From contig OZ005701.1 in assembly GCA_963930775.1 (NCBI GenBank), positions 1,984,001-2,048,000 on the forward strand: 64,000 nt of DNA, read 5' to 3'. Each line of letters opens with the position of its first letter. Positions within the stretch are counted from its first letter, which is position 1. Of this stretch, positions 7,524 to 44,316 are shown piece after piece. The DNA is from Cliona cf. orientalis (taxonomy: Eukaryota; Porifera; Demospongiae; Clionaida; Clionaidae). A program made the translations under genes and the position numbers. The notes under the pieces were generated by a model that was not told the origin of the DNA, ran no database searches, and worked only from the letters and a program-made list of their open reading frames with translations.

Positions 7524-10500
7524 ATGTCTCACACTACTCTGGGAGTCTTGATGATACTCCTCATTCAAGGTACGAGTTAGCTGACCACGTGCACCTGTAT
7601 AATAATAATAATAATATTATAATAGTGCTTCATTAATGATAATAATATTATGCAGAGCATGCATGAACCAGAAAGTCTCATAAAAAATTTTTATAGCTAT
7701 ATGATCAACAACCTTAGGTTATGGAGTAAGCTCATCTGTTCTCGAGGTGTCCATCACTGCTACCTACACCCCTCCATCCAATTTTCTCCGCTCTGCCCCC
7801 TACTATCGTGCAGCCAGTCCCCTGTCTCTCACCTGTGAGGCCAAAGGCACAAACAGTGCTTTCTATAGCTGGACATCGGACTGTTCTGGTAGCTGTTTCA
7901 CTGTGGGCCAGTCTACTAGAACTGTTTCAACACATTATCTAGAGTCGTCTGACTTCGGAGTGCACACATGCACTGCCTATGGTTTCAATGGAGAGACGGG
8001 TAGTGCTAACATTACCGTCTATGTGGTTGGTAAGTTTGTTCGCCTAATAGAAGCTGAGCTATAGGGGTATAGAGCAATCTTGTGGCAGATTGATAACAGT
8101 TACTGTACGTAGGTAGCTACAAGAAATAATGTTATATTAAATTTATCACTTGGTGATTATCAGACTGAGAGTTACACATAACCATAACTTTGTGTGCAAA
8201 AACCAATAGAATCCAGGTAAGGGGGAAATGATTTCAAAAAGCCCAAATCTTATAATGGATAATATAATAATATTATGTACACCAGCCTTCAGTGGCTTTG
8301 TCAATCACGGTCTGCTGTAGGTTATGTTGTTTACTGCATGGTCATACTCAAAATTCAAATGACATTTGCAATAACCTCAGGTGCCGGTATCTACGTTGCT
8401 CATGGCCACAACGCTCTCTCAAACAATGACATGATTGTGACTGGTGCCGGCGGACGAATCAGTGAATTTCGTTGCATTTCTGGTTCAAGTCGTTCCAACA
8501 TTGGTCATCTCTTTGACGTCAATGAAGTGGACATCACAGTGTCAAATGATGACCCCTTCTTCACCTTCCGCCATAATCCTGGCACTGTCCATGTGAGGAG
8601 TCTGCGTTCCCTTCGCAGCAATGAACAGGGTATCTATACCTGCCGCATACCTGATGAGACTGGGACTACTGCCAATGTGAATGTCGGACTCTACCTTAGC
8701 AGCAACGATTGTAAGTAAAGTACAACTCTTGCCACCTCAATAGCTGAGTACAGCGATAATTATGTACAATGGTTACAATATTATTATAGCATCGTTTTCG
8801 TCATTTGTTTTCTTATGCATAATACTATGGTCTTTGCAGTACTATTGACTATTTCAAAGATGGAGTTCAGTGCAAATGGTGATGGCACCTACACAATCAC
8901 TTGTACCTCCACTGGAGCTCCACCCACTGAGGTGGTGTGGATGAGGAACAAACTAGATGTGATAATAAATTCTGACAAGTACTTTCCATCCCAGAGGATA
9001 GTTGACAGAGCTTCTTCTACTTTTGATAATGAGCTCACCATCAAAGGAAACTATCAGGATGCTGTGGGCAATTACAGCTGTAACATTTCTAATTCCATCA
9101 GCTACATATCTGCTCAAAAAACCATCAATGGTAATTTAGAGTTATCTCCACTATTAATCTATTACTCTCTCTCCCCCCTTTCGATTAGCACTTGAAATAA
9201 CTGGGTATGAGAGCCCGATTGTAGTAGGATTACATGGAACTCTTCGCTGCACCACAATCCTCAATATCACCTCAATCAAGTGGTATCTGGCAGCAACTGA
9301 AAATGTTCTTGAAAGTAGCTCATCATCAATTGTTGAGTATGATGTAACACCAAATTCTGCTGGACTAGACGGTACACGCTTCACTTGCAAAGCTGAAACA
9401 GTGACAGGAGAGATCTACAGTAAAACAATTGCTATTAAAGTTAAAGGTATGTCTTTACTGCTCAGTGTGATAAGAGATAATTTAAGTCAAAAATATACCT
9501 CTAGTTAGCTATCTTTACTAGGATAAGTATTAAAGTACTTCTTAGAGTAGCTACTTCTTGCCCTGAGCAGCTGAAGTGCAGGTAATTTTGTTGGTGGTTT
9601 TCTGGAGTGCATGTTTGTGACTGAATCAAAGCTGCAGTTGTAGCCACAAGTTTAATTAGTCACTCAACTGGTACAAAAGCAGGAAATGCAAATGACAATA
9701 GCTCTTTTCTTTGTGGTAAGTGGCCATGGGATGTAATAATAATATTATTGCTCAAGGTACCTGATTGGTCCTAAAACATACCAGAATAGACCTGTACGTA
9801 GCATGTTCCTACATGTGGATTGGTTTTCTTAGATCTGATAGGTAAAAAAATGATAGTGCTTGGGTAGGTGACCTTGCAATGCTTGCTTGTGATTGGTCCT
9901 TTTGTTACCACCAAAAATGAGAAGATACCTTTATCACTATGGACGTGATACTTTGGCTTACCAGGTTATGTTACAGTGACTACTAATTCTGTGATAATGG
10001 TTAAGGGATGTGTAGTTAGTGCCCATGTGTGTAGCCATGACATTGTATGTGTGGTGTGAGTTTGGGCTCGGGTTGGGTTCCAGTTCAGGTGAAACATTAG
10101 TTTGTACAATCTGCAATAACATTGACCTGCTGCATACATTTACAAGAGCATTATTATTGTGTATAAATCATAATGACCACCATGCATACATTTCCTAGAA
10201 CTGAATAATAGCGTGACAATTCAGGGTCCCTCCAGCCCCTTACTAGCCGGTAACTCCTCTACTTTCACCTGTATTGCAACTGCTGAAGTTGCTACTGAAG
10301 TGAGATGGACTGATCCAAGTGGAAATTCTGTGGAAGAAGGAGATGGATTAACCCTTTCTGGTCCTTTTGTGATGGATGACACTACAATTCTTATGTTGAC
10401 ATTCAACTACCTTCGTACCTCACAAGCTGGTACTTACTCCTGTCTCTCCATCACTGACACACCAATATCTGTGCAGAGAGAAGTTAGGGATATCATTGTT

Positions 10501-13500
10501 CAAAGTGAGTTAGATTAATTTTAATTTTATGTAGACAGTATAGCTAGTCTGTAAAAGGGAGGACCATGCATATTACAGCCATACTCTAGCTACTAGGTAA
10601 TAGCTGCACTAGTTTGTTCTCAGAGACTTCTATATTATTATGATGTGATAACTTTCATATCAACACCTCTTTTCTAGTCCCATCTCCCACTGTGAGAGTT
10701 GTCCCTCATCCCAACACTGCTCAACTTTTCACCACCCAACAACTCAACATAACATGCCACACAGTCCTGCACCCAGCTGTTGACACAGCAGTGGGTGTGG
10801 CTAATACATGGACAGGACCATCTGGAGTAATGTCATCAAGTGGGCATATCACGGTAGTTGGAGTGGCTGGAACAGACTTAGAATTTAATTCTTCTGTCCG
10901 ATTTTCGTCACTTCGATCATCGGATTCTGGCAGCTACACTTGTATCTCTACTGTTTCTCTTTCCTCCTCATACATAGTTAGCAGTACCTCTATTTCAGCA
11001 TCAGTCGTTATTTCTGCAAGTAAGTGCACTCATTGAACCGTAGCCAATATTATTGTTATGTTAGCTAAATGGACTAATATTGCTATAATATCTACTGCAT
11101 ACTCCCCCTAGTACACTCCTGACACTTGGTAGCTATAGAGAAGCATATCCATAAACTATCGGTTGGTTTTTCTACTAGGTCTGAAAACCACCATCGATAT
11201 TGACTACACTCCTCCTGATCAGTATCCTGACTATGCTCCTCCCAACTATCGTGCTGCCTCCTCAGTGACGCTTCGCTGTAGGACACAGGGAGCTTATGGT
11301 AGTGTCAGATACAGGTGGTCATCAACCTGTAGCTCCTGCTTTGCTTCAAGTTCCAGTTCATCATCCATCACCGAAAGCATCCTGAAATCTCGCGACAGCG
11401 GCTACCATACTTGCACAGCTACTGACAATAACGGAAATACAGGAAGTGACAGGATTCAAATGAACATCGTTGGTGAGTTAATAAATAGTGATCAGTGTAA
11501 TTATTATTGATGAATTTTACTATTATAATGTGCTCTGTGCAGGTGCGGGAGTGTATGTGTCACAGACTCAAGGATATGCTGGAAGACAAGCAGCCCAGCC
11601 AAACAATACATATCTCAGTGTCTACTCGGGAACCTATTCTAGTGCTGGCTATTCGTCCACGAGATTTCAGGTCTACTGCTGCTCTAATCGGTCATCTTCA
11701 AGTAACATTGGTTCATTTACAGAACCCTATGGAAGTGTATATACCAGCAACTTTCATCACCTAATCATTGAGAGATATACGTACAGCTCAACCTATGCTG
11801 GGTGTATTCGATTGTACAGTTCTGTATCATACTATTATTCCCTATCCTACAATCCTGGAGTCTACATGTGTAATATTCCAGATTCAAATGGACAAACACA
11901 GAGGGTGAATTTTGCTCTTTTTAATTACAATAGTAAGTTTATTCCCTAATAAAATTAATTAATAAGCAGATTATTATCTTTGAACAATGTTTTAGCTCAG
12001 AGTGTTCCCACAATTTACCGCTTTCGACGTACACGAGTCTCCAGTTCAATTCTCACTCTGACGTGTGAGACTAGGACTGCTCCTCCTGCTGAAATCACAC
12101 TGCAAAGAGATGGAGCTAACCTCACTATCGATGGAAGTATAATTCAAATGACACAAACTGTCACTAATCGACTAAGCTCATACTTCACCAGTACTATATC
12201 CATCAACGATGATCCAGATAATGTTGTTGGGACTTACAGAGTGATTGTAGGAAGTTCTTTTGGACAAACCACAAGTGGCTCTATTACCATGAGGGGTATA
12301 TACCTGCTAAATTATGCTAATTTCAAAGGCTATTAATGCATTATAATATTATGCTAGCAGTTTGGGCCATAAACGAATATTATATATAACAATAAGTAAG
12401 TGGAAGTTTCGATTGCACATCGAAGATTCCGGCTGCAAATATAGTGTTGTCATCAAGTGAATGTAGAGGTCTTTAAAATAATTATGCAATAAAACGCATA
12501 ATTATTACCAGTAGGCTCAGCCCTAATTTCAAACAGTACATAATGCAATGTCTTTCTGTTTGGAAATTCCTGTAGGCATCACAATGTCTTCTAGTGTCAA
12601 CATTGGTACTGTTGGCAGTTTTATAACATTCAGCTGTTCCAGTGATTTGGATCCAGTGAGAATCGAGTGGTATCGGGATAATATTTTCCTGTCTCAGAGA
12701 TACGCTACCAGTGGTTCTGTAACTCTTGGGCCGATCTCCACTGATGATGAGGGAGCTGTGTTCACCTGTAGTGCTATCAGTAACTATGGATCACAAGAGA
12801 GAAATAAAACACTTCAGGTTCGAGGTAAACTCTGAATTTTACTGCGTTATACTAATGATGCACACTTTTATCATGTATGTATTGTATACAGTGCCGGACG
12901 ACTGGGCTACTGTTGAAATCGCCAATCTGATCGAAGGAGATGCTCTTCATCAGCACAACTACTCCCTGATGTGCACTGTACAAGCCATACTGGGAATGAA
13001 CATTACTCCAGAGGTTTACTGGTACAATTCAGATGGAATAGTCATCAAAACAGAAGGACGATTTAAAGTTGACACAGTGCAGGAGAATAGTAGCATTACC
13101 ACCCACACTCTCACCTTCTCCCCTGTGCTTCACGATCAAGATGGAGGAGTGTACTCATGTAGAGCCCAGGTCCGATGAGCATAAATTTCATTTTCAGGGA
13201 GGGGGGGTGGTGTTGAGGGGGTTGTGCCCACTCCATTACCCTTAGTATCCATGTGCATGCCTCATACAAGCTACTACTAGCTACCTAAATTTGCCTGTGC
13301 TGCAGGTGACTGTGCCCTGGATGACCACTCAACCACCAGTCAAGCAAGCTAGCATCAACATTCGTGTAATAAGTAAGGGTTAAAATTTACACCATTATGA
13401 ATCTGCATGCACAACACAAGACTACTTACCTATTCCCGTTCATAGTAAGCCACATGTACAATTACGTATGCATGTAATACACATCTAGCTATAATAATTA

Positions 13501-14175
13501 TTATTAATTTTAGATGCATGGTGGGGCAACCATAAGCAATATTTATCTTATTCTCTTCTACAGCTCAGGCTATGTTTCAGCTGAGAATGGGACCATTAAC
13601 ACATTGCTCAACCTGGGAGGTACAACACTTTAACTCAATCCCACTCTTTGATATGCACTCCTCTCCAATTAAACATTCAGGTCTCAAAAGCTGTAGGTCT
13701 TGAATATTCGATTAAAAAGGACATTGAAAAAGCCTTACGAAACCGCTGCAACTGTGATTTCAGCTCCTCAGCTATTTACTCTGGAGAGTTCAGCTGTCAG
13801 ACTACCACCACAGAGGTAGTTTACCGAGCCATCATCAACGGTTCAAGCGAGTCACGTAAAGCCACTGAACTTGTTGACCTTATCAAGAACTGGCTACAGA
13901 GTGAAGGCACCCTGCTCGATAATAAAATTCGCCTGCGACTCGCCCAAAATTGCTCCCCCCGTATCAAGTCCTTCAGTGAAGAAGAGTGTGGAGGGGATCA
14001 AGATCAGAAAGGTCGTGACCTCAAGGATGGTGGGATGCTGCTTGGTTCAAATTCTTGCTACAGGTTCCAGACTTGTGGTGATACTGGCAACGATAACACA
14101 GTAGGAAGTGGTGATGACCACGGTATGAACGATGATGCTGGAAGTGCTGGTTCCAATGATAGTAATTATGAATAA
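7524..14175 (+). CDS. Ig-A: secreted protein with eleven Ig-like domains and a C-terminal cysteine module
   Basis: Fifteen exons: 7524-7569, 7718-8029, 8381-8710, 8840-9130, 9189-9446, 10199-10504, 10678-11019, 11179-11472, 11543-11932, 11996-12295, 12576-12824, 12892-13169, 13306-13372, 13564-13619, 13681-14175. All phases join, giving 1337 residues. Residues 1-15 plus the next glycine form the signal peptide (MSHTTLGVLMILLIQG). Each following exon encodes one Ig-like domain with B- and F-strand cysteines and motifs such as DSGSYTC: D1 16-119, D2 120-229, D3 230-326, D4 327-412, D5 413-514, D6 515-628, D7 629-726, D8 727-856, D9 857-956, D10 957-1039, D11 1040-1154. D7-D10 resemble D1-D4 in order. 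Residues 1155-1337 form the C-terminal module (YSGEFSCQTTTTEVVYRAII), followed by a D/N/G-rich tail. I see no membrane helix, so secretion is inferred. Unusual: domain 11 is split by an intron that B, C and D lack. Function is not recognised; adhesion or recognition is an inference. Confidence 0.85.
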
Positions 14176-15050: not shown

Positions 15051-15410
15051 TAATAAATTCTTTACAGTGGCACTTGAAACTGAAACAGATGACAAACTTT
15101 AAAGTAATTTAATTCATTATTTTTCCATTATTCACCTGTGTCTGTGCCAAATTTCAGGATTCAATACCGTTACTGGGAAAAATTATATTGCATGCTTGTT
15201 TCAGAAAAGTACATTGCTACTAGGGATTTAATATGCATCATTGAGAAACTTAGAATGGACTGGGGATAATCTAGGGTAGGATATTGGGCATACTACGCGG
15301 CTATATAGTCTGAGCCAGCTTGCTATACTAGACCCTCCTGTGAAAGGATTTGGCAATTACATTAGTGGTCTGTGGGTATCTAGGCATGTGATCTATTGAT
15401 GACTCCATGC

Positions 15411-15418
15411 TATTTAAG
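15411..15418 (+). promoter_or_regulatory. Probable TATA box of Ig-B
   Basis: TATTTAAG lies 139 bp before the Ig-B start codon, inside a block of about 250 bp conserved with the region before Ig-C (same motif there 136 bp upstream of the ATG). Conservation between the two promoters, rather than the motif alone, supports the call. Confidence 0.5.
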
Positions 15419-15549
15419 TCACGGACCAGCTGCACCTCCAAACTTTGCAGTTTTGCAACAGTGACTGAGAGCTTACAACCATAGACCTGCAACTCAAACA
15501 GGTGGGCTGCATATTGGATTGTACAACCTTTAGACACTTGAGTTCTACA

Positions 15550-18500
15550 ATGTCTCACACTACTCTGGGACTCTTGGTGATACTCCTGCTCATTCAAGGT
15601 ATCTATTAATTTTGTTCAGTAACTTTGCTAGCTAATACAGTGATAAACTTATATCAACCTTCTTGAATCAAAAGTAGAAGTAGACAGTATTTTCAAAATA
15701 ATCTTCTACCGTAGGTTATGGAGTAAGCTCATCTGTTCTTGAGGTGTCCATCACTGCTACCTACACCCCTCCATCCACCTTTCTCCGCTCTGCCCCCTAC
15801 TATCGTGCAGCCAGTCCCCTGTCCCTCACCTGTGAGGGTGGTGGCAATAGTGGTGCTTTCTATAGCTGGACATCCAACTGCTCCGGTAGCTGTTTCAGTA
15901 TGGGCCAGTCTACTAGGACCGTCTCAACACGTTATCTAGAGTCGTCTGACTCTGGGGTGCACACATGCACTGTCTATGGAATCAATGGAGAGACGGGTAG
16001 TGCCAGTGTGACTGTCAATGTGGTTGGTAAGTTCAAGTGGCAAGCTGCTCAATTGAAGATTATCTTGCATTGCAAGCATGTATGTACTTGAAGAAGTGAA
16101 TGAGGAAGTCCGTGCATATACCCCTTTCTTGATTTTGTGGGTTAGTATTTAAACATTAATCTTTGTTTCATGCTGAAGCAAAGAAAGCACAGAGTACTGG
16201 CTATTAGGATGTGTGAAATTGTTTAGCTTATACCTGTCGTGTAAATAAGTTATATTTCATGTTAGGTGCTGGTATCCATGTTGCCCATGGCCACGTTGCA
16301 CTCCCAAACAACGGCATCATTTTGACTGGTGCTGGTGGACGAATCAGCGAGTTTCGTTGCATTTCTGGTTCCAGTCGTTCCAACGTCGGTCACCTCTTTG
16401 ACATCAATGAAGTGGACATCACAACATCCAACAGTGATCCTTTCTTCACCCTACGCCATAGTCCTGGAACCGTCCAAGTTAGGAGCATACGTCACCTTCG
16501 CAGCAGTGAGCAAGGTATCTATACCTGTCGCATACCTGATGAGACTGGGACAACTGTCGATGTGAATGTTGGACTCTACCTTAGCAGCAACAATTGTAAG
16601 TTCAGAGGTACTAACTTATTAGCCTTGATAATTGTTTCCAGGCCCACTCCCAGCTATTCATTAATGAAAATTAATGTAGCAAAATAATTGAGAATACCAG
16701 GAAATAATAAAGCTACTAGTTAGGCCAATCAAACTACATTGTTAGTTTCTCGTCCACCCGTTTTTATATTTCTATGCGGGCGGGCGATCATTATTCATTA
16801 TTCATTATTCAATATTATGGCATTTTGAGGGTGTGGTTTCCTGGAACCGCCCAAATAATTAGCAAAAAGAGGTGTGGCTGGTGTTTCAAGACAATAATGA
16901 AGACAGATGCGGTAGGTAGAAACAGACGCGGGAGGTGACGAGAAACTAATATTCAAGTTTGTGTGGCCTTATGTACAGCTATTAAAATCTATTTTCACGC
17001 AGCATTTCTTTCTCAATAATAGTATTGTTGACTCTTTCAAAGATGGAATACAATTCAAATGGTGATGGTACCTACACAATCACTTGTACCTCCACTGGGG
17101 CTCCGCCCACTGATGTGGTGTGGATGAGAAATAATCTTGATTTGACAAATTCAGACAAGTACATACCATCCCAGAGGATAGTCGATAGAGCTTCGTCTAC
17201 TTACGACAATGTGCTCACCATCAAGGGAAGCTATGAGGATGCAGTGGGTGATTACATCTGCAACATTTCCAACTACCTCAGCTATACATCCACGAAAAAG
17301 ACAGTTGATGGTAATTGTTTGTAATTCTTTACCACACTAATTTGCAGCTAGCTTTAGCTCTCTCTCTCATTCTGTTCTTTCTCCCTCTTTTCTTTCCTCC
17401 CTCCTCTTACTCTTTGTTCATCTCTCTCCCTTTCAGCTCTCCAAGTGACTGGCTATGAAAGTCCCATTGTTATTGGATTGAGTGGAACTCTTCACTGTTC
17501 CACCATCCTCAATGTTACCTCAATCAAGTGGTACCTAACAGCAACCAACAGTGTTCTTGAGAGCAGTTCATCATCGAGTGTGGAGTTCAAAATGATGCCC
17601 AATTCTGCTGGCCTGAATGGTACACGCTATACATGCAAAGCTGAGACTGCAAGTGGAGAAATTTACAGCAAAACTGTGGATATTCTAGTAAAAGGTACCA
17701 AAATACTGTCACCATAGTAAGGTGGATAACGGGGAATACCTATAGTAAAGGAAATATTGTAACAGTTGCACTTTCTCCAGAAGTTGTATAGTCTGCTAGC
17801 CTATGTGAACTGACCTATTATCAGTGATTGGTAGATAATTTCTTCATAGAGGTGAGGGAGTAGAGTGCATGTAAATTGCTATCCAACTCTTGATTGGTCT
17901 CCACACATTTCTTAGATGCAACACCATGCAGCATGGTTAATACTTATCTACACCTGTTTGCATAAAACACATCAAAGCTATCTAGCTAACATGTAGCTGA
18001 GCAGATGTCTATAGTGTGCAAATAAACACTTAGCTAGCATAATAGTACAAAAGTCTTTACAATATGCATTAGCACTAGCTACTAACACTACTGTCCCCAT
18101 TGTCATAGAAATCAATCCTGGATTGTCTTCAAGTTAGCTCCATGGAGTCTTTGATTCTAGTTTCCCTTTGTCTCTAATGTGTCCTGCTATTTCTTTCCAT
18201 TGTTCTCTTAGTTCACCTCTACAGCCTGGTACTGCTCCAGTTGCCTCCTTTCTTATCTAAGTTTGTTCCTCTCACTTGTGGGTAAAATGGGTGAGGACTA
18301 GTCACGCATACAACACCAGCATGCATTGTTAACACACCTACGACTCCATCTCCATGGCTGCCATCACCGCTGCATCCACAGAACATAACGTACAAACCTT
18401 TATTTACACAAAAGTAAAAAAATAATCAATAGAAACTACTAGTGGTCCATGCAGGAGGGTGCACACAGAGCAAATTCCAAAGTTCACTATGGGGTCATAA

Positions 18501-21500
18501 ATGGGTGAAATCCAGTCACACATGCAACACCAGCATGGCTAGCACTTATCTACACCTATTTATACAAAACACATCAAAGCTATAAATAACATGTAGCTGA
18601 GCAGATGTCCATAGTGTACTGACCATTCAACATTTATTATACTACTAGAAATAAAAATTAATATTTTTAAGGACCTGCTGGTGTTTCTGCACCTCAAACA
18701 GCTTCCAATCTAGATTATTTATCACAACTAGAGAATGATGCTTTACCATTGTTGCAAACTAGGGTGTGCTATGTGCCTCATATATAATTTCAGAGTATGC
18801 ACCCCTCACTACAATTCCTGTACATGTACCTTATGAAACCACAATGGGTGTATTCATGAGTAGATAAGGATTCTGGGCATGGCTGTAATTTACTGCAAGT
18901 TGGTAATACTTGGTAATAATATCACATGTATATGCACCCTAAAAACATATGCACAGAGCTGAACAACAGGGTGTCAATAGAGGGTCCCTCGAACCCTTTA
19001 AGAGCTGGTGGCTCCTACACTCTCACTTGTAATGCTACTGCTGACATCACTCCTGTGGTGAGGTGGACTGATCCTAGTGGCAACTCAGTGGAAACAGGAG
19101 AGGGAATATCTGTCACTGGTCCTTTAGTGTCTGGTGATACAACCATTCTTCAGTTAACATTTGACTACCTTCGTACCTCTCAGACCGGAACCTATTCCTG
19201 CCTCTCCATCGTTGACACACCAACATCGGTACAGAGAGATGTTAGAGATGTTATTGTTCAGAGTGAGTTGATCTACATGTAGCTAGCACATTTATAGTTA
19301 TAGCTATTTAATATATTATTATTATTATGGACTGTATACCTGCAAAAACAGTGAAAGTTGGATCTCTTGAAAATATCCGTTATGTGGTACTGGAATAGTC
19401 CAGTTGCCAGAAAGTTAATTATCGTATTCGCTCGATCAGACGCCACTCTCAAACAGTCGCTGCACCTCCAGAAGTGCTTAACAAAAATTAATAGTTGCGA
19501 CTTTCAAATAGTAGCTGTGCCATGCCTATTATTTATTGAGTAACACGTGCGCACGTGAACATGCCTCATGACACGTTCTCGGTGCATAGCAGGTAGCTAC
19601 AACAAAGGTGAAATAAAATGAAGATTCTCTCTATGGAAAACTTATTAAAACTGTTGGGTACAATTTGCTGACGTTTCAACTAGATGCTCTAGTAATCCTC
19701 AAGTCATTCAGAGAAAATTCACAGAGGAGGAAGAAAACTTTTTCTCTGGCAAGTTAATAAGTTCTCCACAGAGAATCTTTGTTTATTTCATGCGGATGGC
19801 AACTGACAGCGATATTATCACTACATACAACAAAAGTATTTAGCAGTCTTCTAGAATAAGCAATGTTGACATATTAAATCTAAAGTACAATACAAGCAGC
19901 CATATATCAGGTTTTTTCTCCGCATCTGCGATTTATTATATAGCTACGTTGAGAGGAAGAGCCTGGTGTGAGCCTCATTAATCACTTTGTCGTTTCCATT
20001 CCAGTTCCTCAGCCTACAGTGAGAGTCGTCCCTCACCCCAACACCACTCAACACTTCACCACCCAACAGCTCAACATAACATGCCACACAATACTGCACC
20101 CAGCTGTTGACACAGCTGTGGGTGTGGCTAACACATGGTCGGGACCGTCCGGAGTGATGTCATCGGACGGGCACATCACTGTAGTCGGAGTGGCTGGGAC
20201 AGATTTGGAGTTCAATTCTGCTCTCCGCTTTTCATCTCTACGATCGTCGGATTCTGGGTCTTACACTTGCTTCTCAACTGTTTCACTGGTCTCCTCCTAC
20301 ATTGCCAGTGGTGATACTGTTTCTGCTTCGATCACCGTAACTGCCAGTGAGTGGGTAACTGTCTATGTGACACAAAAATGCTTATGACAATGTTATAATA
20401 GTACGTACACTATGTAATCCCTCACCTAGACTTTCATATGTACAATCATGATAATAGTATACACTTGCTCTCTGTAATAATTTTATACTGATTATAGGTC
20501 TGAAGACTACAATTGACATTCATTACACTCCTCCTGATCAGTACCCTGACTATGCTCCTCCCAACTATCGTGCTGCCTCCTCAGTGACCCTTCGCTGTAG
20601 GACAGAGGGAGCCTCGGGTAGTGTCAGCTACAGGTGGTCGTCAACCTGTAGTTCCTGCTTTGCTTCCAACTCTTATTCTTCCTCTATATCTGAAAGTATT
20701 CTCAAGTATCGCGATAGTGGTGTTCATACATGTACGACTACAGATAGCATTGGAAACACGGGGAATAACAGCACACGTATGAACATTGTTGGTAAGTCGG
20801 CACACTACGCAGCTTGAAAATCATATTCTATAATATATTTACTACAGGTGCAGGAATATATGTTTCGTTTAGTCGAGGTTATGCTGGAAGACAGGCTGCA
20901 CAACCTAACAATACCTTCATCAATATTGACTCATATCCAGCCAGTAGCTACCAGCGTGTATTTCTTTACTGCTGCTCAAACTCCAGTTCTAGCAATGTGG
21001 GTTCATTCACAGAACCATCTGGAAGCACATACTACAGCAACTTTAACAACCTCTACGTTCAGAGGTATGGTAGCGGCTCAACGTATACTGGATGCATAAG
21101 AATGGAGGGTTCAAGAAATCGTTGGAGTTATTTAAGTTACAACCAAGGAATGTATACCTGCAATATTCCAGACAGCTATGGGCAGACACAAGCTGTGAAT
21201 TTTGCCCTATATGCAGAAACCAGTAAGTACTGTACACTTAATTCTATGAACATGATACCATCATTCCAATTTTTGTTTTCTTATACAGCTCGCGATGTCC
21301 CAACAATCTATAGCTTTGGGCACACACGGAGCTCCAATTCCATTCTGTCGTTCACCTTTGAGACCAGGACAGCTCCTCCAACTGATGTTATATTGCAAAG
21401 GAATGACTTGAACCTCACTATCGATGGAAGCACTATTCAGATGACTCAAACGATTACAAATAGATATAACACATACTATAATAATATTATATCCATTCAC

Positions 21501-23949: not shown

Positions 23950-26900
23950 ATGTCTCATACTACTCCGGGAGTCTTGGTGATAATCCTGCTTATTCAAGGT
24001 ACAAGTACTTGTATAGTGATCTGGCTAGCTAACACACTGTTGTATCTCAACCTTCACACGGAGCATAAATCAGAAACAGAAATAGAACAGTTTTTTCAAA
24101 ATAATAATCTTCTACTGTAGGTTATGGAGTAAGCTCATCTGTTCTTGAGGTGTCCATCAATGCTACCTATACCCCTCCATCCACCTTTCTCCGCTCTGCC
24201 CCCTACTATCGTGCAGCCAGTCCCCTATCACTCACCTGTGAGGCTGGTGGCAATAGTGGTGCTTTCTACAGCTGGACCTCCAACTGTTCCGGTAGCTGTT
24301 TCACTATGGGCCAGTCTACTAGGACTGTTTCAACACATTATCTCGAGTCGTCTGACTCTGGAGTGCACACATGCACTGTCTATGGAATCAATGGAGAGAC
24401 GGGTAGTGCCAATGTGACTGTCAATGTGGTTGGTAAGTTCAAGTTCAAATGGCCAGCGAATTGTTCAGCTTATACCTGTCATGCAAATAACCTTCATGTT
24501 AGGTGCTGGTATCCATGTTGCCCATGGCCATGTTGCACTCCCAAACAACGGCATCATTTTGACCGGAGCTGGTAGACGAATCAGCGAATTTCGTTGCATT
24601 TCTGGTTCAAGTCGTTCCAACGTCGGTCACCTCTTTGACGTCAATGAAGTGGACATCACAACGTCCAACAGTGATCCTTTCTTCACCCTACGCCATAGTC
24701 CTGGAACCGTTCAAGTTAGGAGCATACGTCACCTTCGCAGCAGTGAACAAGGAATCTATACCTGCCGCATACCTGATGAGACTGGGACAACTGTTGATGT
24801 TAATATCGGACTCTACCTCAGCAGCAGCAATTGTAAGTTCAGATTTACTAATTGGATAGCACAAGCCTTAGTTATCTCCATGCCCATTACAAGCTATTAA
24901 CAATTATAATACTGGTACGGTATTGTCGTTGCATGCTGATCTTGAAAAATGAAGCAAAACAACACTTTACTGAGAATGAGCCTGGGGACAACAATAAAAC
25001 TACTAGTAACGATACAATTTTCATGCAGCTTGCTTTCTAAATCATTGTAGTATTGTTGACTCTTTCAAAGATGGAATACAATTCAAATGGTGATGGTACC
25101 TACACTATCACTTGTACCTCCACTGGGGCTCCACCCACTGAGGTGGTGTGGATGAGGAATGATCTTGATGTGACAAATTCAGACAAGTACATACCATCCC
25201 AGAGGATAGTCGACAGAGCTTCATCTACTTACGACAATGTGCTCACCATCAAGGGAAGCTATGAGGATGCAGTGGGTGATTACATCTGCAACATTTCCAA
25301 CTACCTCAGCTATACATCCACAAAAAAGACAGTTGATGGTAATTATTGGTAATCCTTTACCTAGTGTGGCCAGCTAGATCTACTCCTCCTCTCCTATTCA
25401 TTATGCTGAGGTTGATTGTCAAGGGGGAAGGGTCTAGTAACTCTTGCTAATGAGCTGTTGAAATTGGTTTGAACTGACCAATGAGAGCTCAACGACAGAT
25501 TCTCTCCACTTGTTAGTTACGCAATAGGTAGTAACAAGTTTACTTAGCTACACTGTTTCTATGGTAGCCAGACTGCAGGTGATGCACCTGACCTTGTAGT
25601 GTTTACCTAACACATCAACTACTGACCACAATGGCCAAACTCCTGTATGTGGATAGTTCTGAGCTGCACAAGGAATGCTGCATGAGTCACTAGACCCTTC
25701 CCCCCACTACAAAACTCAAATAAATAATCTAGAGAGGGACAAGGGTCTAGCTGGCCAGATTATTCTTTACCATACTAATTTCCAGCTCTAGCTCTCTCTT
25801 CCTCCTTCTCCCTCCCCCTCTCTCATTCCCCCTTAACGTTCCTTCCTTCTCTCACTCTATCTATCTCTCTCTCCTGCAGCTCTTGAAGTGACTGGCTACG
25901 AAAGCCCAATTGTTGTTGGATTGAGTGGAACTCTTCACTGCTCCACCATCCTCAATGTGACCTCAATCAAGTGGTACCTGACAGCAACCAACACTGTTCT
26001 TGAGAGCAGTTCATCATTGAGTGTGGAGTACAAAATGATGCCCAATTCTGCTGGCCTAAATGGTACACGCTATACATGCAAAGCTGAGACTGCAAGTGGA
26101 GAAATCTACAGCAAAACTGTGGATATTCTAGTGAAAGGTATGCCACAACACCTAGTACATGACCTGAAGGAATAGTAATAACACTTTCTTGGGAGGTTAT
26201 ATGAGTGGTAGATAATACTTGTTTCCAAGAGGTACTGGTAGGTTATTTAACTTGATATCCATATTTTATGGCTTCCAAGAGGTGAAGTATGCATATGAAT
26301 TGCTCATGAAATTTGGTTGTCTCAGCACTTCCCTCACATTTTCTTGGAGGTGGAGGGGTGTATGCATGTGAATAAATCTTTGATTGGTCAAAGAGTGATA
26401 GTGCTTTGGTTGAGTGACCTCTCTTAGCTTGCTTCTGATTGGTTGTTGGTTTTGGGATGTTTTTATCATGCATGAGAAAAGAATCTTTGTGTGCGATGCA
26501 TTCAGGACCAATGTTGTTTTCTCAGTACCCATGTGGTTGCCAGTCTGTCGTAACCATAGATTCGATAGGGTTTGCTCTGTAATTGGTTCCCATAGACATG
26601 GCCGTTTTGAAGGGATTTTCAAAGCTCCGAAATGAGCTTAGTGTGGATACATTCTCAGCCAGATAAGGTCTTTCGAAGTACCCTCAGAATGCCGACAAAC
26701 CTACTAGAAAGTCCCTTTATAATGATATTTTTAAGTACCAGGTATTTCAGCACCTCAAACAGCTCACAATTTATATTAGTTACCACAAGGTAGAGAATGA
26801 TGCAGTATTGCTTTATTAACATTGCAAACTAGCAGTGTATTGTACTCACAGTATGTATCCCTCACTACAATTCTTGTACTGTACTTTGTGAAACCACAAT

Positions 26901-29900
26901 GGGTGTATTCATGAGCATATAGGGATTCTGAGTATATGCTTGTAGTTTACTGTAAGTTGGTAATACTTGGTAATAATACACTTTCAATACACACAACACA
27001 TGCACAGAGCTGAACAACAGGGTGTCAATAGAGGGTCCCTCGAACCCTTTAAGAGCTGGTGGCTCCTACACTCTCACCTGTAATGCTACTGCTGACATCA
27101 CTCCCGTGGTGAGGTGGACTGATCCTAGTGGCAACTCAGTGGAAACAGGAGAGGGAATATCTGTCTCTGGTCCTTTAGTGTCTGGTGACACAACTATCCT
27201 TCAGTTGACATTTGACTACCTTCGTACATCTCAGGCCGGAACATATTCCTGCCTCTCCATCGTTGACACACCAACATCAGTACAGAGAGATGTTAGGGAT
27301 GTCATTGTTCAAAGTGAGTTAGCTATAAGCAACTTATAATGGGTGCCATAATATTATTATTATCATGATATTTGGGTTTTCTTAAGACACAACATAGCTA
27401 CGTAGCTACCACATGGGCCCTCAAGGGTTAAGATGTCCTTTCGAAATTGTCCTTGACCCAGCCAGTGGAGATAGCTGCTAGCCTTGAACCAGACTCTTTC
27501 TTTCCATGTTTGCATGATAGATGCACAACAGTTTTAGTATAATATATGGAGGCTTTCACATTCACTCATGTCTGTGTTTATAGCAGTCGAATTGTATTAG
27601 AGCACCATAGACCCTTCCATTGTGTTGATAGCACCCAAGTCATACCAACACATTCTCTATTTCTAATCCAGTTCCTCAGCCCACAGTGAGGGTCGTCCCT
27701 CATCCCAACACCACTCAACTCTTCACCACCCAACAGCTCAACATAACATGCCACACAATACTACACCCAGCCGTCGATACAGCAGTGGGTGTGGCTAACA
27801 CATGGTCAGGACCGTCTGGAGTAATTTCATCGGATGGACACGTTACAGTAGTTGGAGTGGCTGGGACAGACTTGGAATTTAATTCCGCTGTCCGTTTTTC
27901 ATCACTGCGATCATCGGATTCTGGCACTTACACTTGCTTCTCAACTGTTTCTCTTGTCTCCTCCTACATTGCCAGTGGTGACACTGTTTCTGCTTCAATC
28001 ATCGTAACTGCCAGTGAGTGGGTAACTGTCTACGTGACACAAAAATGCTTATGATAATGCCTTAATAAGTACACTATGTAATCCCTCACCAAGATTTGGG
28101 TATGCTGTCAAAATAATATGCTTGCTTTCCATATACTAATTGTAGGTCTGAAGACTACAATTGACATTTATTACACTCCTCCTGATCAGTATCCTGACTA
28201 TGCTCCACCCAACTATCGTGCTGCTTCCTCCGTGAACCTTCGCTGTAGGACAGAGGGAGCCTCGGGTAGTGTCAGCTATAGGTGGTCATCAACCTGTAGT
28301 TCCTGCTTTGCTTCCAACTCTTATTCTTCCTCTATATCTGAAAGTATTCTCAAGTATCGCGATAATGGTGTTCATACATGTACGACTACAGACAGCATTG
28401 GAAACACGGGGAATAACAGCACACGTATGAACATTGTTGGTAAGCCGGCACACTACACAGCTTGAAAATCATATTCTATAATATATTCACTACAGGTGCA
28501 GGAATATATGTTTCGTTTAGTCGAGGTTATGCTGGAAGACAGGCTGCACAACCTGACAATACCTTCATCAATATTGACTCTTATCCGGCTAATGGCTACC
28601 AGCGTGTACTTCTGTATTGCTGCTCAAACTCTAGTTCTAGCAATGTGGGTTCATTTACAGAACCATCTGGAAATACATACTACAGCAACTTTAACCACCT
28701 CTATGTTCAGAGGTATAGTAGCGGCTCAACGTATACTGGATGCATAAGAATGGAGGGTTCAGCATATGGTTGGAGTTATTTAAGTTACAACCAAGGAATA
28801 TATACCTGCAATATTCCAGACAGCTATGGGCGGACACAAGCTGTGAATTTTGCCCTATATGCGGAAACCAGTAAGTACACTTAATTCTATGAACATGATA
28901 CCATCATTCCAACTTCTGTTTTCTTAGCTCGCAATGCTCCAACAATCTATAGCTTTGGGCACACACGGAGCTCCAATTCCATTCTGTCGTTTACATTTCA
29001 GACCAGGACAGCTCCTCCGACTGATGTTATATTGCAAAGGAATGGCTTGAGCCTCACTATTGATGGAAGCACTATTCAGATGACTCAAACTATTACAAAC
29101 AGATATAATACCTACTATAATAATATTATATCCATTCATGATGATCCAGATAACGTTATAGGCAACTATACCATTGTGGTGGGGAACTCCGTTGGGCAAA
29201 TCACCAGTGACACGATTTCAATAGAAGGTAAGAACAGCAAAAAGAGTTGCTACATAAATATAATATTATGCCACTTTTAACAAATTAGGTATCATGATGA
29301 CATCGACTGCTGATATTGGCACTGTTGGTCGCACTATCATATTCAACTGTTCTAGTGATTTGGATCCAGTGAGAATTGAATGGTACAGAGATGATAGGCT
29401 ATTATCACAAACAAACTCAACTAGTGGCACTGTCGTTCTTGACTTGATCTCAACGGATGATGAGGGAGCAGTGTACACCTGTAGTGCCATTGGTCATCAT
29501 GGGTCACAAGAGAAGAACAAAACACTTCGGGTTCAAGGTATAATCATGAAAGTTTGTATGACGCCGGATGGCAATAATAATAATGTATAACTAGTTCATA
29601 TGTTCTTTTAGTACCAGACAACTGGGGTAGTATTGAGATCACTACCAGTGGAGACGCTCTTCATCAGCACAATCATACTCTGACATGCACCGTGCGAGCC
29701 ATACGGGGAATGAACATTGCTCCACAAGCTCAGTGGTACTATCCAAACGGCTCAAAAGTTGAAGCAGGTGTACGAATTAAAGCGTATTTGATGGAAACTA
29801 CTGGAACAGTCACTTCACTGACTCTCACATTCTCCCCTGTTCTGCATGATGATGGAGGAGTGTACTTGTGCAGAGCCCAGGTCACTATACCCTGGATGAC

Positions 29901-30694
29901 CACTCAGCCTCCAGTCAAGCAAGCTAGGGTCAACATGCCTGTTATAAGTAGGCTATTAATGATAAAGATAGCTACAGTGTTGAATTGATAATTATATTAT
30001 TGACAATATTATTGCTTCTCTTCTCAGCTCAAGCAATGTTCCAACTGAGAATGGGACCTCTGACACACTGTTCTAATTGGGAGGTATATATGGCTATCAT
30101 TGTTTTGCTCCCAAGATATCTTAAGTCAATCACATTAGCCAAGTGTCTAGCTAGATATTCATAAAATTCAAGTAATGATGATTCTTATTCTTTTCTCCTC
30201 TCCAATTTTAGGTAACAAAAGCTATAGATCTTGAATCCTCGATTGCAAAAGATATCGAAGAAGCCTTACGAAAACGCTGCAGCTGCGATTTCAGCTCCTC
30301 GGCTATTTACTCTGGAGAGTTCAGCTGTCAGACTACCACCACAGAGGTCGTTTATCGAGCTATCATTAACGGTTCAAGCGAGTCACGTAAAGCTACTGAA
30401 CTTGTCAACTTCATGGAGAACTGGCTACAGAGTGAAGGCACCCTCCTCTATAACAAATTCCGCCTGCGACTCTCCCAAAATTGCTCCCTCCATATCAAGT
30501 CTTTCAGTGAAGAGGAGTGCGGCGGTGATCGAGACAGATCTGATAAGAATAGAGCAGATATCGATGGAGGTCGTGACCTCAAGGATGGTGGGATGCTGCT
30601 TGGTTCGAATACATGCTACAGGTTCCAGTCTTGTGATGATACTGATGGCAAAGATAATAACATAGAAGGAAGTGGTGATAGCCACATTCATTAA
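23950..30694 (+). CDS. Ig-C: secreted protein with eleven Ig-like domains and a C-terminal cysteine module
   Basis: Fourteen exons: 23950-23998, 24121-24432, 24503-24832, 25051-25338, 25880-26137, 27008-27313, 27672-28013, 28146-28439, 28496-28870, 28928-29227, 29289-29537, 29612-29947, 30028-30083, 30212-30694; total 1325 residues. Signal peptide MSHTTPGVLVIILLIQG. Very close to Ig-B in every exon. Domain 9 lacks both canonical cysteines (SFTFQTRTAPP; NYTIVVGNS), as in B. The last exon differs from B in its tail: after EEECGGD there is a longer charged stretch (RDRSDKNRADID) and a different, shorter end with a final HIH. Intron 4 carries a C-only insertion (25361-25760). No membrane segment visible. 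Role unknown; a recognition or adhesion role is an inference from the domain content and duplication. Confidence 0.87.
25361..25760. mobile_element. Insertion in Ig-C intron 4, absent from Ig-B
   Basis: Ends are inverted around GGCCAGCTAGA / TCTAGCTGGCC. Near-identical ~10-bp flanks (aatcctttac on the left, tattctttac on the right) match the single attctttac of the Ig-B intron, so they look like a target-site duplication. An inner inverted pair around gggtctagtaact also exists. A duplication of about 8 bp would fit an hAT-type non-autonomous element; family not certain. Confidence 0.65.
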
Positions 30695-31314: not shown

Positions 31315-34300
31315 ATGAAAGCAGCTCTTCTTGCAGTGATACTTCTTGTATCACTGATAGAAAAAGGTATGTCACTTCATGCAAGTAATGACATAGCATA
31401 GTATCATTAAGTTTTTTGTGCAGGTGCAAGTACTAACAACCAAGCAGTTGCTGAATTCAAAGTGTATATTGCTGTCAACTACACACCTCCTTCAACCTTC
31501 CAGTACATTGCCCCGTACTATCGTGCTGCCAGTCCCCTCACCCTCACTTGTGAAGTTGAAGGTATCAGTGGTGAAGGACTATTCTATGAATGGAGATCTA
31601 CCTGCCCTGGGAACTGTTTTGCGGCGAGGCAGACATCGAAGACTGTTTCTGCTCAATACCTTCATTCCTATGACTCTGGTGTTCACACTTGCATAGTGTA
31701 CGATGGACTTGGATGCAGCGGAAATGCAAGTATATCTGTTCATGTCAGTGGTAAGTGACTTCAGTATTTCTAATCTAGCAAAGGTTTTCTTGCATCATTA
31801 TTATGATGGGACATAAAATTAATAGGTGCTGGTATTTACGTGACTTCTGGACGAGAAGCTCTACCAAACAATGGTCTGATAGTGGCTGGTGTGACTAACC
31901 GAATCAGTGAATTCCGCTGCTTATCTGGCAGTAGCAGTCCCTTTGTTGGGCAGCTGCTTGGACCAAATGGTGAAGATCTCACTCACGTTGATGCTGACCA
32001 TTTCTTAGTGCACAGAGGTGGAAGTTATGATCCTGGACTCATTCATGTACGAAGGTTGGCTCCTCTGGCCAGAGAAGAACAGGGAGTGTACACCTGTCGG
32101 ATACCAAATGAGAGAGGCACTGCTGTGGATGTGAATGTGGGACTATATCTCAGGGACTCTGCCGGTTGGGAAACTAAAGAAGTTTATGAATGCACATTGG
32201 ATGACAGTAATTTCTTTTTTTATTTCAGGGCCACCAACGATCGAAAGCCTGAAATATGGACTGAATGATCAAGGACTTTACGTCATCAATTGTACAACTA
32301 GTGGGACACCCCCAACGAATGTCACTTGGACAAGAAATGATGTTGTCATAGACAATAATGATGGGACGTACAAGCCGTCACAGATACTGGTCAACAGAAC
32401 CAAGACCGTATACAATAATGTACTCATGATTGAGGGTTTGTTTGAGGATGCCATTGGAAACTATAGTTGCACTGTTGGAAATTCCCTTGGAACTTCAAAA
32501 ACAGTCAACAGAACTATAAAATGTATATCAACACTGCTATAATTTAATACCTCATGCATGGGTTTAAAGTGGAGGGGGGGGGGGCTTGTTGATAATTGCA
32601 AGTAAAGTAGATAAAACATTTTGCCATCATAATATCCAGCATTGAGCACTTTGCCAGTACAGTAACAATTTTTAAGTAGGGCTCAGTACCACAGCCTAAC
32701 CCAGTTTTTGATGACTGAATTTGGTGCAACTGTCATACCAGAATTAGGTCTATGTCAACAATCTTTGCCATGCCTACGTATAATACACAATCATGTATTA
32801 GAGCATAATAATGACAAAGCATGAAAGTTGGGGAGGGCTTTTGCCCCCCCCCCCCCCCCAGCCTGGTGTCTACACGCCCATACATACTTATTATTTTGTT
32901 CTCTCTACTCAGCTCTGGAGATAACAGGCCATAGTAAGCCCATCATTGTCGGGCTTGCTGGAACTATTAACTGCAGCACCCTGTTAAATGTCTCCAAGCT
33001 CGAGTGGTTTATCAGTGGGATTAAGGACCTCTCAGAAAGCAGAGAAGGTACGAAATTTATAACTCTGTCCCTTACTCCTCAAACCACAGCCTGGAACGGA
33101 ACAAGTGTTACTTGTAGTGCGACTACTCATGATGGTGATGTCTATGAAGAAAGTGTTGACCTCACTGTGAAAGGTAATATAAAGTACCTGGTATACATAC
33201 ATGATTCCTCCTAGATAGTTGTTTATGAGAATTGGTGCAAAAAGCACAGGTGTTGATTTATTCAACTATTATTATCAAATATAATGGATAACAATGGAGC
33301 ATTGTTGTTAAAGTTAGTTTTGTAAGTCATGAGAGTGTGATATTTGGTATGTGTTTCCACAGAATTGGACAATATAGTAAGAATCGAGGGCACCAGTAAT
33401 CCCTGGGTGGCCGGTAGGTCTGGGTACTCACTAACATGTATGGTCACCGCTGACATTGCTCCCGAGATCAAATGGAGGGATGGGAACAACAATCCGATCT
33501 CCAACACCAATAGCAGTGTTGATATCTTTGTCTCTGAACCAGTCGTGAGTGGAAGGACCACTCGTCTTATACTCAATTTCAACTCACTGCGGACCTCTCA
33601 TGGAGCCAGCTATTCGTGTTTATCAGTTATCACTGTTCCATCATCTGTTCAAGTTGCTGTAAGAGATGTCATTGTCAAAAGTGAGTTCATGCATATGGTG
33701 CATGACAATTAAGTTATATACGCCATTTTAAACTGGTATTAATGCTTCTTTTGTAATAATAGTTCCACCTCCCGCTGTAACGGTGGTGCGCCAACCAGAC
33801 AGGGTTCAGTTATTTACAACAGAAAGTGTTGATCTTATCTGTTTAAGTGACATCAGTCTGGCTGTGGACACACCAATCAGCGTCAGCATGACTTGGTATG
33901 GATCTTCAGGGAATAGAGTGCAATCTGATGGACGGGTTTCTGTACTGGGTGACCGCGGTATGTTTACAGAACATGATTCCACTCTTAGATTCAGTTCTCT
34001 ACGCTCGTCTGACTCTGGCACTTATACCTGCTCCTCTGTTGCCAGCTCAACTTCTCGATATGTGGTTGCCAGTGACACAACATCAGCTGAAAGTTCTATA
34101 AATGCAGGTATATGTATAGTCACCTTCTCTATTTGCTATGCTAAAATTTAATTGCGATCATTATACACATTTCTGAATCAGTTCTCAAGACAGTCATCAC
34201 TGTTTCCTATACCCCACCGGATCAGTATCCAATATATTCCCCACCACGTTATCGTGCTGCTTCCTCAGTCACTCTGAGATGTTCAGCCCAGGGTGCATCT

Positions 34301-36713
34301 GGCAGTGTCAGCTACAGATGGTCATCAAATTGCAGCTCCTGCTTTGCTTCTAGTTCGACCTCATCCACAATATCGGAGAACATGTTGAGGTCACGTGATG
34401 CTGGTGTACACACTTGCACAGTAACAGACAGCAGTGGAAACTCAGGAAGCAACACTACACAGATGCATATATTTGGCAAGTTAAGCTTGGCTGAAATGTT
34501 TGCTCATAATAATATCCCTGGCACAACATGTAGGTGCTGGAATTTATGTTTCTAGTAGCCGCTATGGTTATGCAGGAAGGCAAGCATCTCAGCCAGACAA
34601 CACATACATAAATGTGGACTCTGGTACCGGCAGTAGCAGTTCAAGATTTAATCTTTACTGCTGCTCAAATTCAACTGCCAGTAGTGTTGGTTCATTCACA
34701 GATCCCTATGGAAATACGTACACAGGTAGCTTCAATGATTTGAGAATTTCAAGATACTCAAGTGGGCAAACTAATACTGGATGTATCAGAATGGAAGGAT
34801 ATGAATATTATCGGAACCATATCTCATACACATCTGGTGTATACACTTGCAATATCAGGGACTCCACTGGACAGACTCAGTATGTGAACTTTGCACTCTA
34901 CAGTCAAAGCTGTACGTTCACTCGAGTCCACTTAGAGGATTTGTAATGATTGTACTTGTCTCTCCTATATAAATTTAGCTCGACCATCTCCAAATATTTA
35001 TCGATTTCAAAAAAGTAGCTCCACTTCTGCCTTAACCTTCACCTGTGAGACAAGAAACGCCCCTCCTACTGAAATCAGCTGGCAAAAAGATGGAGTCCCT
35101 CTTAGTATCGATGGAAATATCACCAAAATGTCTCACACAATCACCAACCGCAGGAGCACCTACTATACAAACACCTTGTCCATATATGGAAACCCAGATG
35201 AGATGGCAGGTCGCTACACTTGCTCTTATGGTAATCGATACAGTTCTCAGATTACTAGTTCATCAGTTACAGTCCAAGGTATTCTATAATTCATAAATTT
35301 GAACTCTCATTCTTAGACTAGTGTTGTTCATAATGTTTTGTTGTTAGGTATACAGCTTAGTGGTCATTCCAGTAATTATATCATCGGTCAAAGTGTATCA
35401 TTCAGCTGCTCCAGTGACCTGTCTCCAACCAGAGTGCAGTGGTACAGAAATGGATCACTTGTAACCGACACTGATGGATCACAGGGAAGAGTGAATCTTG
35501 GTACCATTACTACTGATCATCAGGGGGCAATGTACACCTGCAAGACTGTCAGTCCATATGGCTCTCAAGAAAGAAATGTAACAATAAACACTCAAGGTAA
35601 TACTACTAAGACCAATGACCTGAGATTACTCTAATTATTGTATTATTCTTGTATCCTTTAGTCCCTAGCTCCTGGGCAACAATTGAAATCACCAATACAA
35701 CCAAAGGAGATGCTTTGCATGAACAGAGATATGTGCTTGTTTGCACTGTGCGACTTACGACAGGGTTAAGAATTGCTCCTGGCGTGAATTGGTACTACAA
35801 TGGCTCCATAGTAGAGACAAGTGAACGTGTAACCGTCGATACAAGATACTCTTCACAATCCAATAGTGCGACCACACACACACTTACATTTTCACCTGTT
35901 TTAAATCATCACGGAGGAATGTACTCTTGCCGAGCCCAGGTCACTATACCCTGGATGACAACTCAACCATCGATCAAGCAAGCTAGTGTCAACATGCGTG
36001 TGACAAGTAAATAGCTAGCTATACCATAATGCAACACTGCATGCTGTGATAATTATAGGACCTTTGAATGTGAAGACTCCTTTCCCCACCCCCACCCCCC
36101 CCCCCCCCCCCACACTCACACATACACATGTAGCTCAAGCCACATTTCAACTTCAGATGGGTCCACTGTCTCACTGCTCAAACTGGGAGGTATAATAATA
36201 ATTATAAAACACTAAACTTATAAAGGTAAAATAATTTAATAGCACGATGTCGTACCACATATCAAGGTATCCAAAGCTGAAGATCTTGAAGAGTCAGTCA
36301 AGAAAAATCTAAAACAGGCCGTCCGCCAACGCTGCAATTGCAGCTTTGAGTCCTCATCCATCTATTCTGGAGAGTTTAGCTGTCAAACCACCACCACTAC
36401 AGTCATCTATCGAGCCATTATCAATGGTACAAGTGACCTACGCAATGCTACTGAACTTTTGGGCCACATTGAAAATTGGCGCAACAAGCAAGGAACTTTA
36501 CTCTACCACAAATTTCGTCTCCGTGTATCCCAGCACTGCCCACTTCAGATTGAGTCCTTTGATGAAGTGGAGTGTAAGAATGGAACATCACCTCTAGGAG
36601 GTGCACGTGATGGACAAGATGAGAGTGGATTGCTGCTAGGTGGTGGCAGCTGCTACAGGTTTCAAGCTTGTGATGATGGTTCTGACCCCACTACTGGCAG
36701 TGAAAATAATTAA
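31315..36713 (+). CDS. Ig-D: divergent secreted protein with eleven Ig-like domains and a C-terminal cysteine module
   Basis: Fourteen exons: 31315-31366, 31424-31750, 31826-32164, 32229-32522, 32913-33173, 33363-33680, 33763-34107, 34182-34475, 34534-34911, 34979-35278, 35348-35596, 35662-36006, 36134-36189, 36267-36713; total 1334 residues. Same exon plan and phases as Ig-A/B/C but clearly more diverged, with a different signal peptide (MKAALLAVILLVSLIEKG). Domain 9 keeps both cysteines and the core tryptophan (FTCETRNAPPTEISW; RYTCSYGN). Intron 8 appears to use a GC donor (TTTG|GCAAGT at 34476). Intron 3 (32165-32228) has a weak donor GTTGGG and is the least certain boundary. The C-terminal module retains YSGEFSCQTTTTTVIYRAII and ends with a short acidic tail. 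Introns are short. It looks like the outgroup of the array. Confidence 0.84.
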
Positions 36714-44144: not shown

Positions 44145-44316
44145 TGTGTATCCAATCATATGGTCACCTCTGCGTGCGCACATGCCTCCCTGCATCTACT
44201 GAGCAGGAAGCCCATACATGTAGTTAAAATACACACATAGATAATAGAAGGGGAGGAGGGATTGGAAACACCTGTACCAACGTATGGTGATGTGACAGCA
44301 CATGCTCGCCACGGTA

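Follow-up and report, generated by a model that had tools for sequence, protein, structure and literature searches.

What might a sponge do with a tandem array of genes that encode long, apparently secreted chains of immunoglobulin (Ig)-like domains? Four such genes lie on the forward strand of contig OZ005701.1 of Cliona cf. orientalis (assembly GCA_963930775.1), within the stretch of 64,000 nucleotides analysed here (contig positions 1,984,001 to 2,048,000; hereafter ‘the window’, in which all positions are given). A first-pass annotation, made from the letters of the DNA, had considered the array a candidate recognition system. Here, we retain its picture of secreted multi-Ig proteins of an adhesion type that arose via duplication and depart from it on the recognition role, given ratios of non-synonymous to synonymous substitution rates (dN/dS) of ∼0.2 and the absence of broken copies from the window. 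We suggest that the products are secreted adhesion or matrix scaffolds, a reading to which we give about an even chance.

The array spans positions 7524-36713 (+), from the first ATG base of gene A to the last stop base of gene D, and comprises four complete genes (A–D) arranged head to tail, each with an open translation from ATG to stop and no internal stop (4/4). The order of parts in gene A (signal peptide exon, Ig1–Ig11, linker exon, and C-terminal exon) recurs in B, C, and D; the signal exon ends in phase 1, the Ig exons have phase 1 at both borders, and the linker leads from phase 1 to phase 0. The annotated plan of four neighbouring genes, with a signal peptide and about one Ig-like domain per phase-1 exon, is therefore seen in all four, gene A having one additional intron within Ig11. 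Splice sites were picked by eye in A and B; in C and D, homology guided the choice, using a script that required GT-AG, and the first and last exons of C and D and the Ig7 exon of D were placed by hand. Given this way of choosing sites, the count of GT-AG introns (52 of 53, the other being a GC-AG intron after Ig7 of D, with its donor at 34476) is not independent evidence; the Ig2 donor of D (after 32164) is weak and uncertain. Independent support for the gene models comes from the agreement of intron positions, phases, and frame across diverged copies, which extends to comparisons of A, B, or C with D even though synonymous sites are saturated or nearly so in these pairs. A tblastn search of the window with the four proteins (E 0.01) hit the modelled exons only, and no extra member emerged among 711 open reading frames (ORFs) of at least 40 amino acids when these were searched with profiles of the 44 Ig domains and of the C-terminal module (E 0.1).

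Exon-by-exon Pfam scans covered two of the four genes, with ten of the eleven Ig exons of B and ten of eleven of D (all but Ig4). In each gene, seven of the ten exons matched an Ig family at E<0.001 (Ig1, 3, 4, 5, 6, 7, and 10 in B; Ig3, 5, 6, 7, 9, 10, and 11 in D), and Pfam’s own cut-off was passed by four in B (Ig1, 3, 5, and 10) and six in D (Ig3, 6, 7, 9, 10, and 11). The match of D Ig1 reached only E 0.0089, B Ig11 was matched in a whole-protein scan, and Ig9 was clearly matched in D and unmatched in B. Protein B as a whole matched Ig_3 at E 1e-33, over the cut-off, which places it in the Immunoglobulin superfamily as a multi-Ig protein. Ig2 and Ig8 had no match in the exon scans of either gene, and their Ig nature rests on conserved cysteines and on an AlphaFold model of B Ig8 that was built from an alignment of eight window sequences and shows seven strands at medium confidence (predicted local distance difference test [pLDDT] score 62.5). 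The best PDB structures for this model were NCAM and ZIG-8 Ig1 domains, at weak scores (best E 0.013; none of 492 at E<=0.001). ‘Eleven Ig-like domains’ is thus a fair reading of each protein: the annotated count stands by Pfam for most positions, with Ig2 and Ig8 the least sure and Ig-like on weak evidence. At least four cysteines occur in Ig1, Ig7, and Ig8 of all four genes. The number in Ig9 falls from two in D to one in A and zero in B and C; the predicted Ig9 disulphide is lost stepwise. Elsewhere in the window, a separate Ig domain is encoded at 62860-63279 (+) (Ig_3, E 3e-10), which the array Ig profile misses at E 0.1.

In all four proteins, every 19-residue hydrophobic window scoring at least 1.5 begins within residues 1–11, and the C-terminal end (final 40 residues) is hydrophilic; neither a membrane segment nor a glycosylphosphatidylinositol tail is therefore indicated. 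The proposed lack of a membrane anchor agrees with this, as no membrane-like segment follows the signal peptide in any of the four proteins, each of which carries 17–23 N-glycosylation motifs. From the appearance of the signal peptides and the gene models, the proteins are apparently secreted. A hidden membrane exon was considered and not retained: of the transmembrane (TM)-like stretches in the 3′ regions, those that recur between A, B, and C are other-frame readings of the C-terminal exon. That reading is the only TM-like stretch in the 3′ region of gene C, and the others, in A, B, and D, differ by eye; the scan of the 3′ regions started inside the last exons, and the remainder was compared from gene to gene by eye only. 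Upstream, A, B, and C have in common a block with a TATA-like CTATTTAAG (CTATAAAAG in A), GCAGTTTTGCAA, and GAGAGCTTACAA. The block is a putative promoter and suggests joint expression.

The C-terminal exon (148–164 amino acids) bears out the description of a novel-looking module. There was no Pfam match at or near the cut-off for the four exons or for three linker-plus-core pieces, and a PDB sequence search gave nothing up to E 10; GEFSCQTTTT and YRAIING are unchanged in all four genes. Pfam hits to DUF3472 (C, E 0.071) and DGKD_4H (A, E 0.22 and 0.12) were far under their cut-offs. The predicted order of strands and helices resembles what we take to be the SEA domain pattern. Tests did not support this candidate: Pfam gave no SEA match, and in hhalign against one SEA sequence the module scored no better than shuffles, which did as well in 23 of 60 (local) and 40 of 60 (global) cases. 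AlphaFold of the exon alone, without the linker exon, yielded an unusable model (pLDDT 38.8). Profiles of the module and of the Ig1/Ig7 type had no relative in prokaryotic and viral contigs, a result uninformative on animals. Towards D, the best-kept parts of the proteins are the linker (79–84% identity), columns 28–64 of the C-terminal exon (76–78%), and Ig7 (69–71%); outside those columns, the C-terminal exon of D is 50–51% identical to that of A or B. Should the module prove to be an independent domain, it could serve as a search marker for a family of secreted Ig proteins that has no name yet.

Put together, these parts outline how a scaffold could work. The signal peptide, read directly from the sequence, would export a multi-Ig glycoprotein from the cell, the Ig chain would contact partners, and the C-terminal module, through its conserved core, might fix or oligomerise the protein. 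In the available part of a review, sponge Ig superfamily proteins are mainly linked to cell adhesion and intercellular recognition (PMC11999971).

The divergence of the copies bears on the choice between these two roles. Protein identity is 92.3% for B-C, 74.7% for A-B, 74.5% for A-C, and 51.4–53.7% for D against the others. To call B and C ‘near-identical’ overstates their likeness, given this identity and a synonymous divergence (dS) of 0.21; that D is the old copy, and split first, fits its 51–54% identity to A, B, and C. Whole-gene dN/dS (Nei-Gojobori) is 0.19 for B-C, 0.20 for A-B, and 0.21 for A-C, values which indicate that the copies are maintained; with D, where dS is saturated, it is 0.13 (A-D) and 0.12 (C-D), B-D being not computable. 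A dN/dS above 1 in surface loops would have supported a recognition role; this test went against it, as the ratio is <1 in every domain and pair for which it could be computed (many against D could not be, because of dS saturation), the top value being 0.69 for the short signal peptide exon in A-B. Pairwise averages can overlook a few selected sites. In the 40-codon windows of B-C, A-B, and A-C (67 per pair, not all computable), dN is above dS twice: once in Ig8 of B-C (alignment columns 820–859, six non-synonymous and zero synonymous changes) and once in the C-terminal tail of A-B (from column 1300, dN 0.07, dS 0.03).

B and C have different amino acids at 101 of 1314 codons, spread unevenly over exons (permutation p 0.0005), with 28 of 710 codons changed in Ig1–Ig7, 70 of 588 from Ig8 to the end, and 3 of 16 in the signal exon. 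Ig8 contains the loop triplet R89A-N90Y-R91G. On the medium-confidence model, B-C changes in Ig8 affect 10 of 79 loop and 2 of 45 strand residues (p 0.21); the same comparison gives p 0.006 for B-D, 0.007 for C-D, 0.037 for A-D, 0.34 for A-B, and 0.19 for A-C. We take such a concentration in loops as ordinary for Ig domains and, on a model of this quality, do not treat it as a special signal.

The array grew by duplication at two levels. When each of the eleven Ig positions was profiled and compared with domains at other positions, Ig1-Ig7, Ig2-Ig8, Ig3-Ig9, Ig4-Ig10, and Ig5-Ig11 were mutual best matches, and Ig6 was nearest to Ig5; with hhalign, three of these five pairs (1-7, 2-8, and 3-9) and no other pair of positions exceeded the preset display score. 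The in-register matches indicate that a block of five domains was most likely doubled inside one ancestral gene before the four genes split. Tandem duplication of whole genes came next, D separating first, then A, and B and C last, an order drawn from identities and not from a tree.

Copies later exchanged sequence, as seen in the A-B pair and at the B 3′ end. In A-B, synonymous divergence is low at both gene ends and high in the middle (dS 0.28 in Ig1, 0.50 in Ig2, 2.43 in Ig8, and 0.19 in the C-terminal exon), and fourfold-site differences run likewise (10/58 in Ig1, 20/33 in Ig8, 5/7 in the tiny linker, and 6/62 in the C-terminal exon). Heterogeneity of these sites over exons has p 0.0002 for A-B, 0.0024 for A-C, and 0.36 for B-C; the longest identical run of fourfold sites is a weak indicator (p 0.039, 0.088, and 0.14, respectively). 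Over the whole gene no pair is closer than B and C, yet the 3′ end of B is nearer to A: the second half of this exon shows 8.6% differing sites for A-B against 21.6% for B-C (C-terminal exon), with A-B closer in 2000 of 2000 bootstraps, whereas in the first half A-B is closer in 26% and the usual order stands. Past the stop, gene C cannot be aligned with A or B. The A-B mosaic is best read as the outcome of conversion, or of unequal exchange, that affected the ends of the genes; on these comparisons it is well supported for A versus B and for the B 3′ end, and exchange elsewhere between B and C is unproven.

Several observations weigh against scaffolds. The Ig domains resemble adhesion proteins in a generic way only; between B and C, amino-acid change in the C-terminal half outpaces what a plain structural role predicts; the C-terminal exon as a whole is averagely conserved (57–58% identity to D) and, at 85% identity between B and C, is among the least conserved exons; and 3′-flanking TM-like stretches (A, B, and D) leave room for an undetected downstream exon. 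By analogy with VCBPs, the products might instead be soluble immune recognition molecules or opsonins, with the Ig chain binding microbes and the C-terminal module tethering it to the host matrix, which we regard as possible and the strongest of the competing accounts, if well short of probable. A secreted protein of many Ig domains that ends in a module of another kind would suit this role, as would the Ig1, Ig7, and Ig8 domains, cysteine-rich in every gene, and the quicker B-C change of the C-terminal half with its Ig8 loop triplet; moreover, VCBPs are held at the gut mucus with bacteria by a C-terminal chitin-binding domain, according to the consulted portion of PMC4757023, and Ig-domain genes are among those responding to microbial molecules in two sponges, as stated in part of PMC6208332. 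It sits poorly with dN/dS of ∼0.2 in the three unsaturated pairs and with protein B, to which the domain-absence tests (Pfam, E up to 10) were confined, having no chitin-binding, lectin, or fibrinogen match. A recognition family private to a non-bilaterian animal, with long secreted Ig chains, its own anchoring module, diversification by exchange within the array, and a binding region formed by the faster-changing half from Ig8 to the C-terminus, is a doubtful prospect.

An ordinary tandem expansion for dosage or tissue-specific expression, all products doing one job, is unlikely. The upstream block of A, B, and C and the like constraint in B-C, A-B, and A-C speak for it, and many tandem clusters with identical intron-exon structure, ascribed to slippage and unequal crossing-over, are described for a sponge genome in the accessible part of PMC7385117, along with duplicated clusters of similar coding and variable intronic sequence, which makes the array as such unsurprising; a D only 51–54% identical to the others, and Ig9 cysteines kept in D and lost in A, B, and C, speak against. 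Allorecognition, in which secreted products of the locus would mark each individual, is improbable and comes last among the biological options. Tandem Ig genes that exchange sequence would be expected of it, and the candidate fuhc locus of Botryllus has a secreted, highly polymorphic product that is perhaps the major determinant; however, the same text, as far as available, finds it hard to see how a protein, once released, would reveal where it came from (PMC3691228), and the paralogues here are under purifying selection, the window containing no additional broken copy. For Amphimedon grafts, the consulted portion of one study gives no significant enrichment of cell-adhesion genes, and the word immunoglobulin is absent from its text (PMC5450542). 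That the assembler placed two alleles of one gene in tandem as B and C is very improbable: they are the most similar pair (92.3%), but a dS of 0.21 and non-alignable 3′ regions are far past what we would expect alleles to show, and their intron lengths differ. Adhesion or matrix scaffolds accordingly rank above soluble immune molecules, these above dosage expansion, and allorecognition below them all. The array would matter much more as a recognition locus, and present evidence does not point there; it is also a usable case of how multi-Ig proteins build up through block doubling, gene duplication, and exchange between copies. We noticed no account of such an array among literature titles and abstract openings, and do not claim its absence from print.

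Table 1. Positions of the array genes and their parts in the window (aa, amino acids; nt, nucleotides).
Feature	Gene	Position	Strand	Description and basis
Gene	A	7524-14175	+	15 exons, 1337 aa; gene model and full translation
Gene	B	15550-23045	+	14 exons, 1329 aa, plan as in A; gene model
Gene	C	23950-30694	+	14 exons, 1325 aa, plan as in A; gene model
Gene	D	31315-36713	+	14 exons, 1334 aa, plan as in A; gene model
Extra intron splitting Ig11	A	13170-13305	+	phase 0
Ig1-Ig5, putative first copy of five-domain block	B	15715-19262	+	reciprocal profile matches
Ig7-Ig11, putative second copy of five-domain block	B	20498-22296	+	reciprocal profile matches
Ig9 regions	A, B, C, D	11996-12295, 21289-21588, 28928-29227, 34979-35278		cysteine count falls stepwise
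Linker exon	B	22383-22438	+	56 nt, phase 1 to 0; gene model
Linker exon equivalents	A, C, D	13564-13619, 30028-30083, 36134-36189	+	gene models
C-terminal exon	B	22551-23045	+	unclassified cysteine-containing module; four-gene alignment
C-terminal exon equivalents	A, C, D	13681-14175, 30212-30694, 36267-36713	+	four-gene alignment
Shared upstream block	B, A, C	15410-15549, 7363-7523, 23813-23949	+	alignment

Pfam scans of ten other ORFs characterised the surroundings. These include an anoctamin match within a longer ORF (285-1118 [+], E 1.3e-37); a single 626-aa ORF for a P-loop NTPase that is AAA_14 / STAND-like (40203-42080 [-]; AAA_14 E 1.4e-07, with an nSTAND_NTPase5 match under its cut-off); a hAT-type transposase in two overlapping frames (46644-48604 [+]; DUF4371 E 2.1e-21, Dimer_Tnp_hAT E 9e-09); and a kinase-like ORF (59063-60502 [+]; Pkinase E 9.5e-08), the first part of which is duplicated (58920-59509 versus 61944-62522 [+], 83% DNA identity). 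Four repeat pairs possibly belong to mobile elements: inverted arms at 4209-4327 and 4475-4593 (99% identical), direct repeats at 2895-3362 and 5175-5629 (91%) and at 39540-39904 and 44316-44688 (82%), and an inverted pair at 43651-44089 and 58330-58810 (73%). Scans of the window for tRNAs and Rfam families returned nothing.

How, finally, do the array proteins compare with known systems? Dscam, Robo, NCAM, and hemicentin likewise have long Ig chains, and the match is weak: the top PDB sequences for protein B, 14 altogether, are headed by Dscam (E 7.8e-08), Robo2, and NCAM2. In contrast to these, the array proteins have their own C-terminal module. Dscam has fibronectin III domains and a membrane anchor, and hemicentin a VWA domain plus EGF repeats; fibronectin III, VWA, and EGF were all unmatched in protein B, and a membrane segment was found in none of the four proteins. 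FREPs combine a fibrinogen-related domain with Ig superfamily domains, and fibrinogen was unmatched in B. The sponge aggregation factor consists of secreted adhesive proteins with Calx-beta, VWD, or Wreath domains, of which Calx-beta and VWD were unmatched in B. The VCBPs of tunicates and amphioxus resemble the array proteins in being secreted, with Ig domains (V-type in VCBPs) followed by a distinct C-terminal module, the chitin-binding domain described in the part of PMC4757023 at hand; the array proteins differ in having eleven Ig-like domains and no chitin-binding domain by Pfam in protein B, the four C-terminal exons, or the three linker-plus-core pieces. Alr1 and Alr2 of Hydractinia also belong to a clustered Ig superfamily gene family, and are, in the available text of PMC11067881, single-pass membrane proteins whose ectodomains are highly polymorphic and whose gene clusters contain many likely pseudogenes, whereas all four array copies are intact and show no membrane segment and the window, unlike the Hydractinia ARC, holds no broken or partial extra copy (tblastn). 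The secreted product at the Botryllus fuhc candidate recognition locus is highly polymorphic and, at 555 aa in the part of PMC3691228 consulted, shorter than the 1325–1337 aa of the array proteins. While they lack at least one tested defining feature of each of Alr, VCBP, FREP, Dscam, hemicentin, and the sponge aggregation factor, the array proteins are members of the Ig superfamily.

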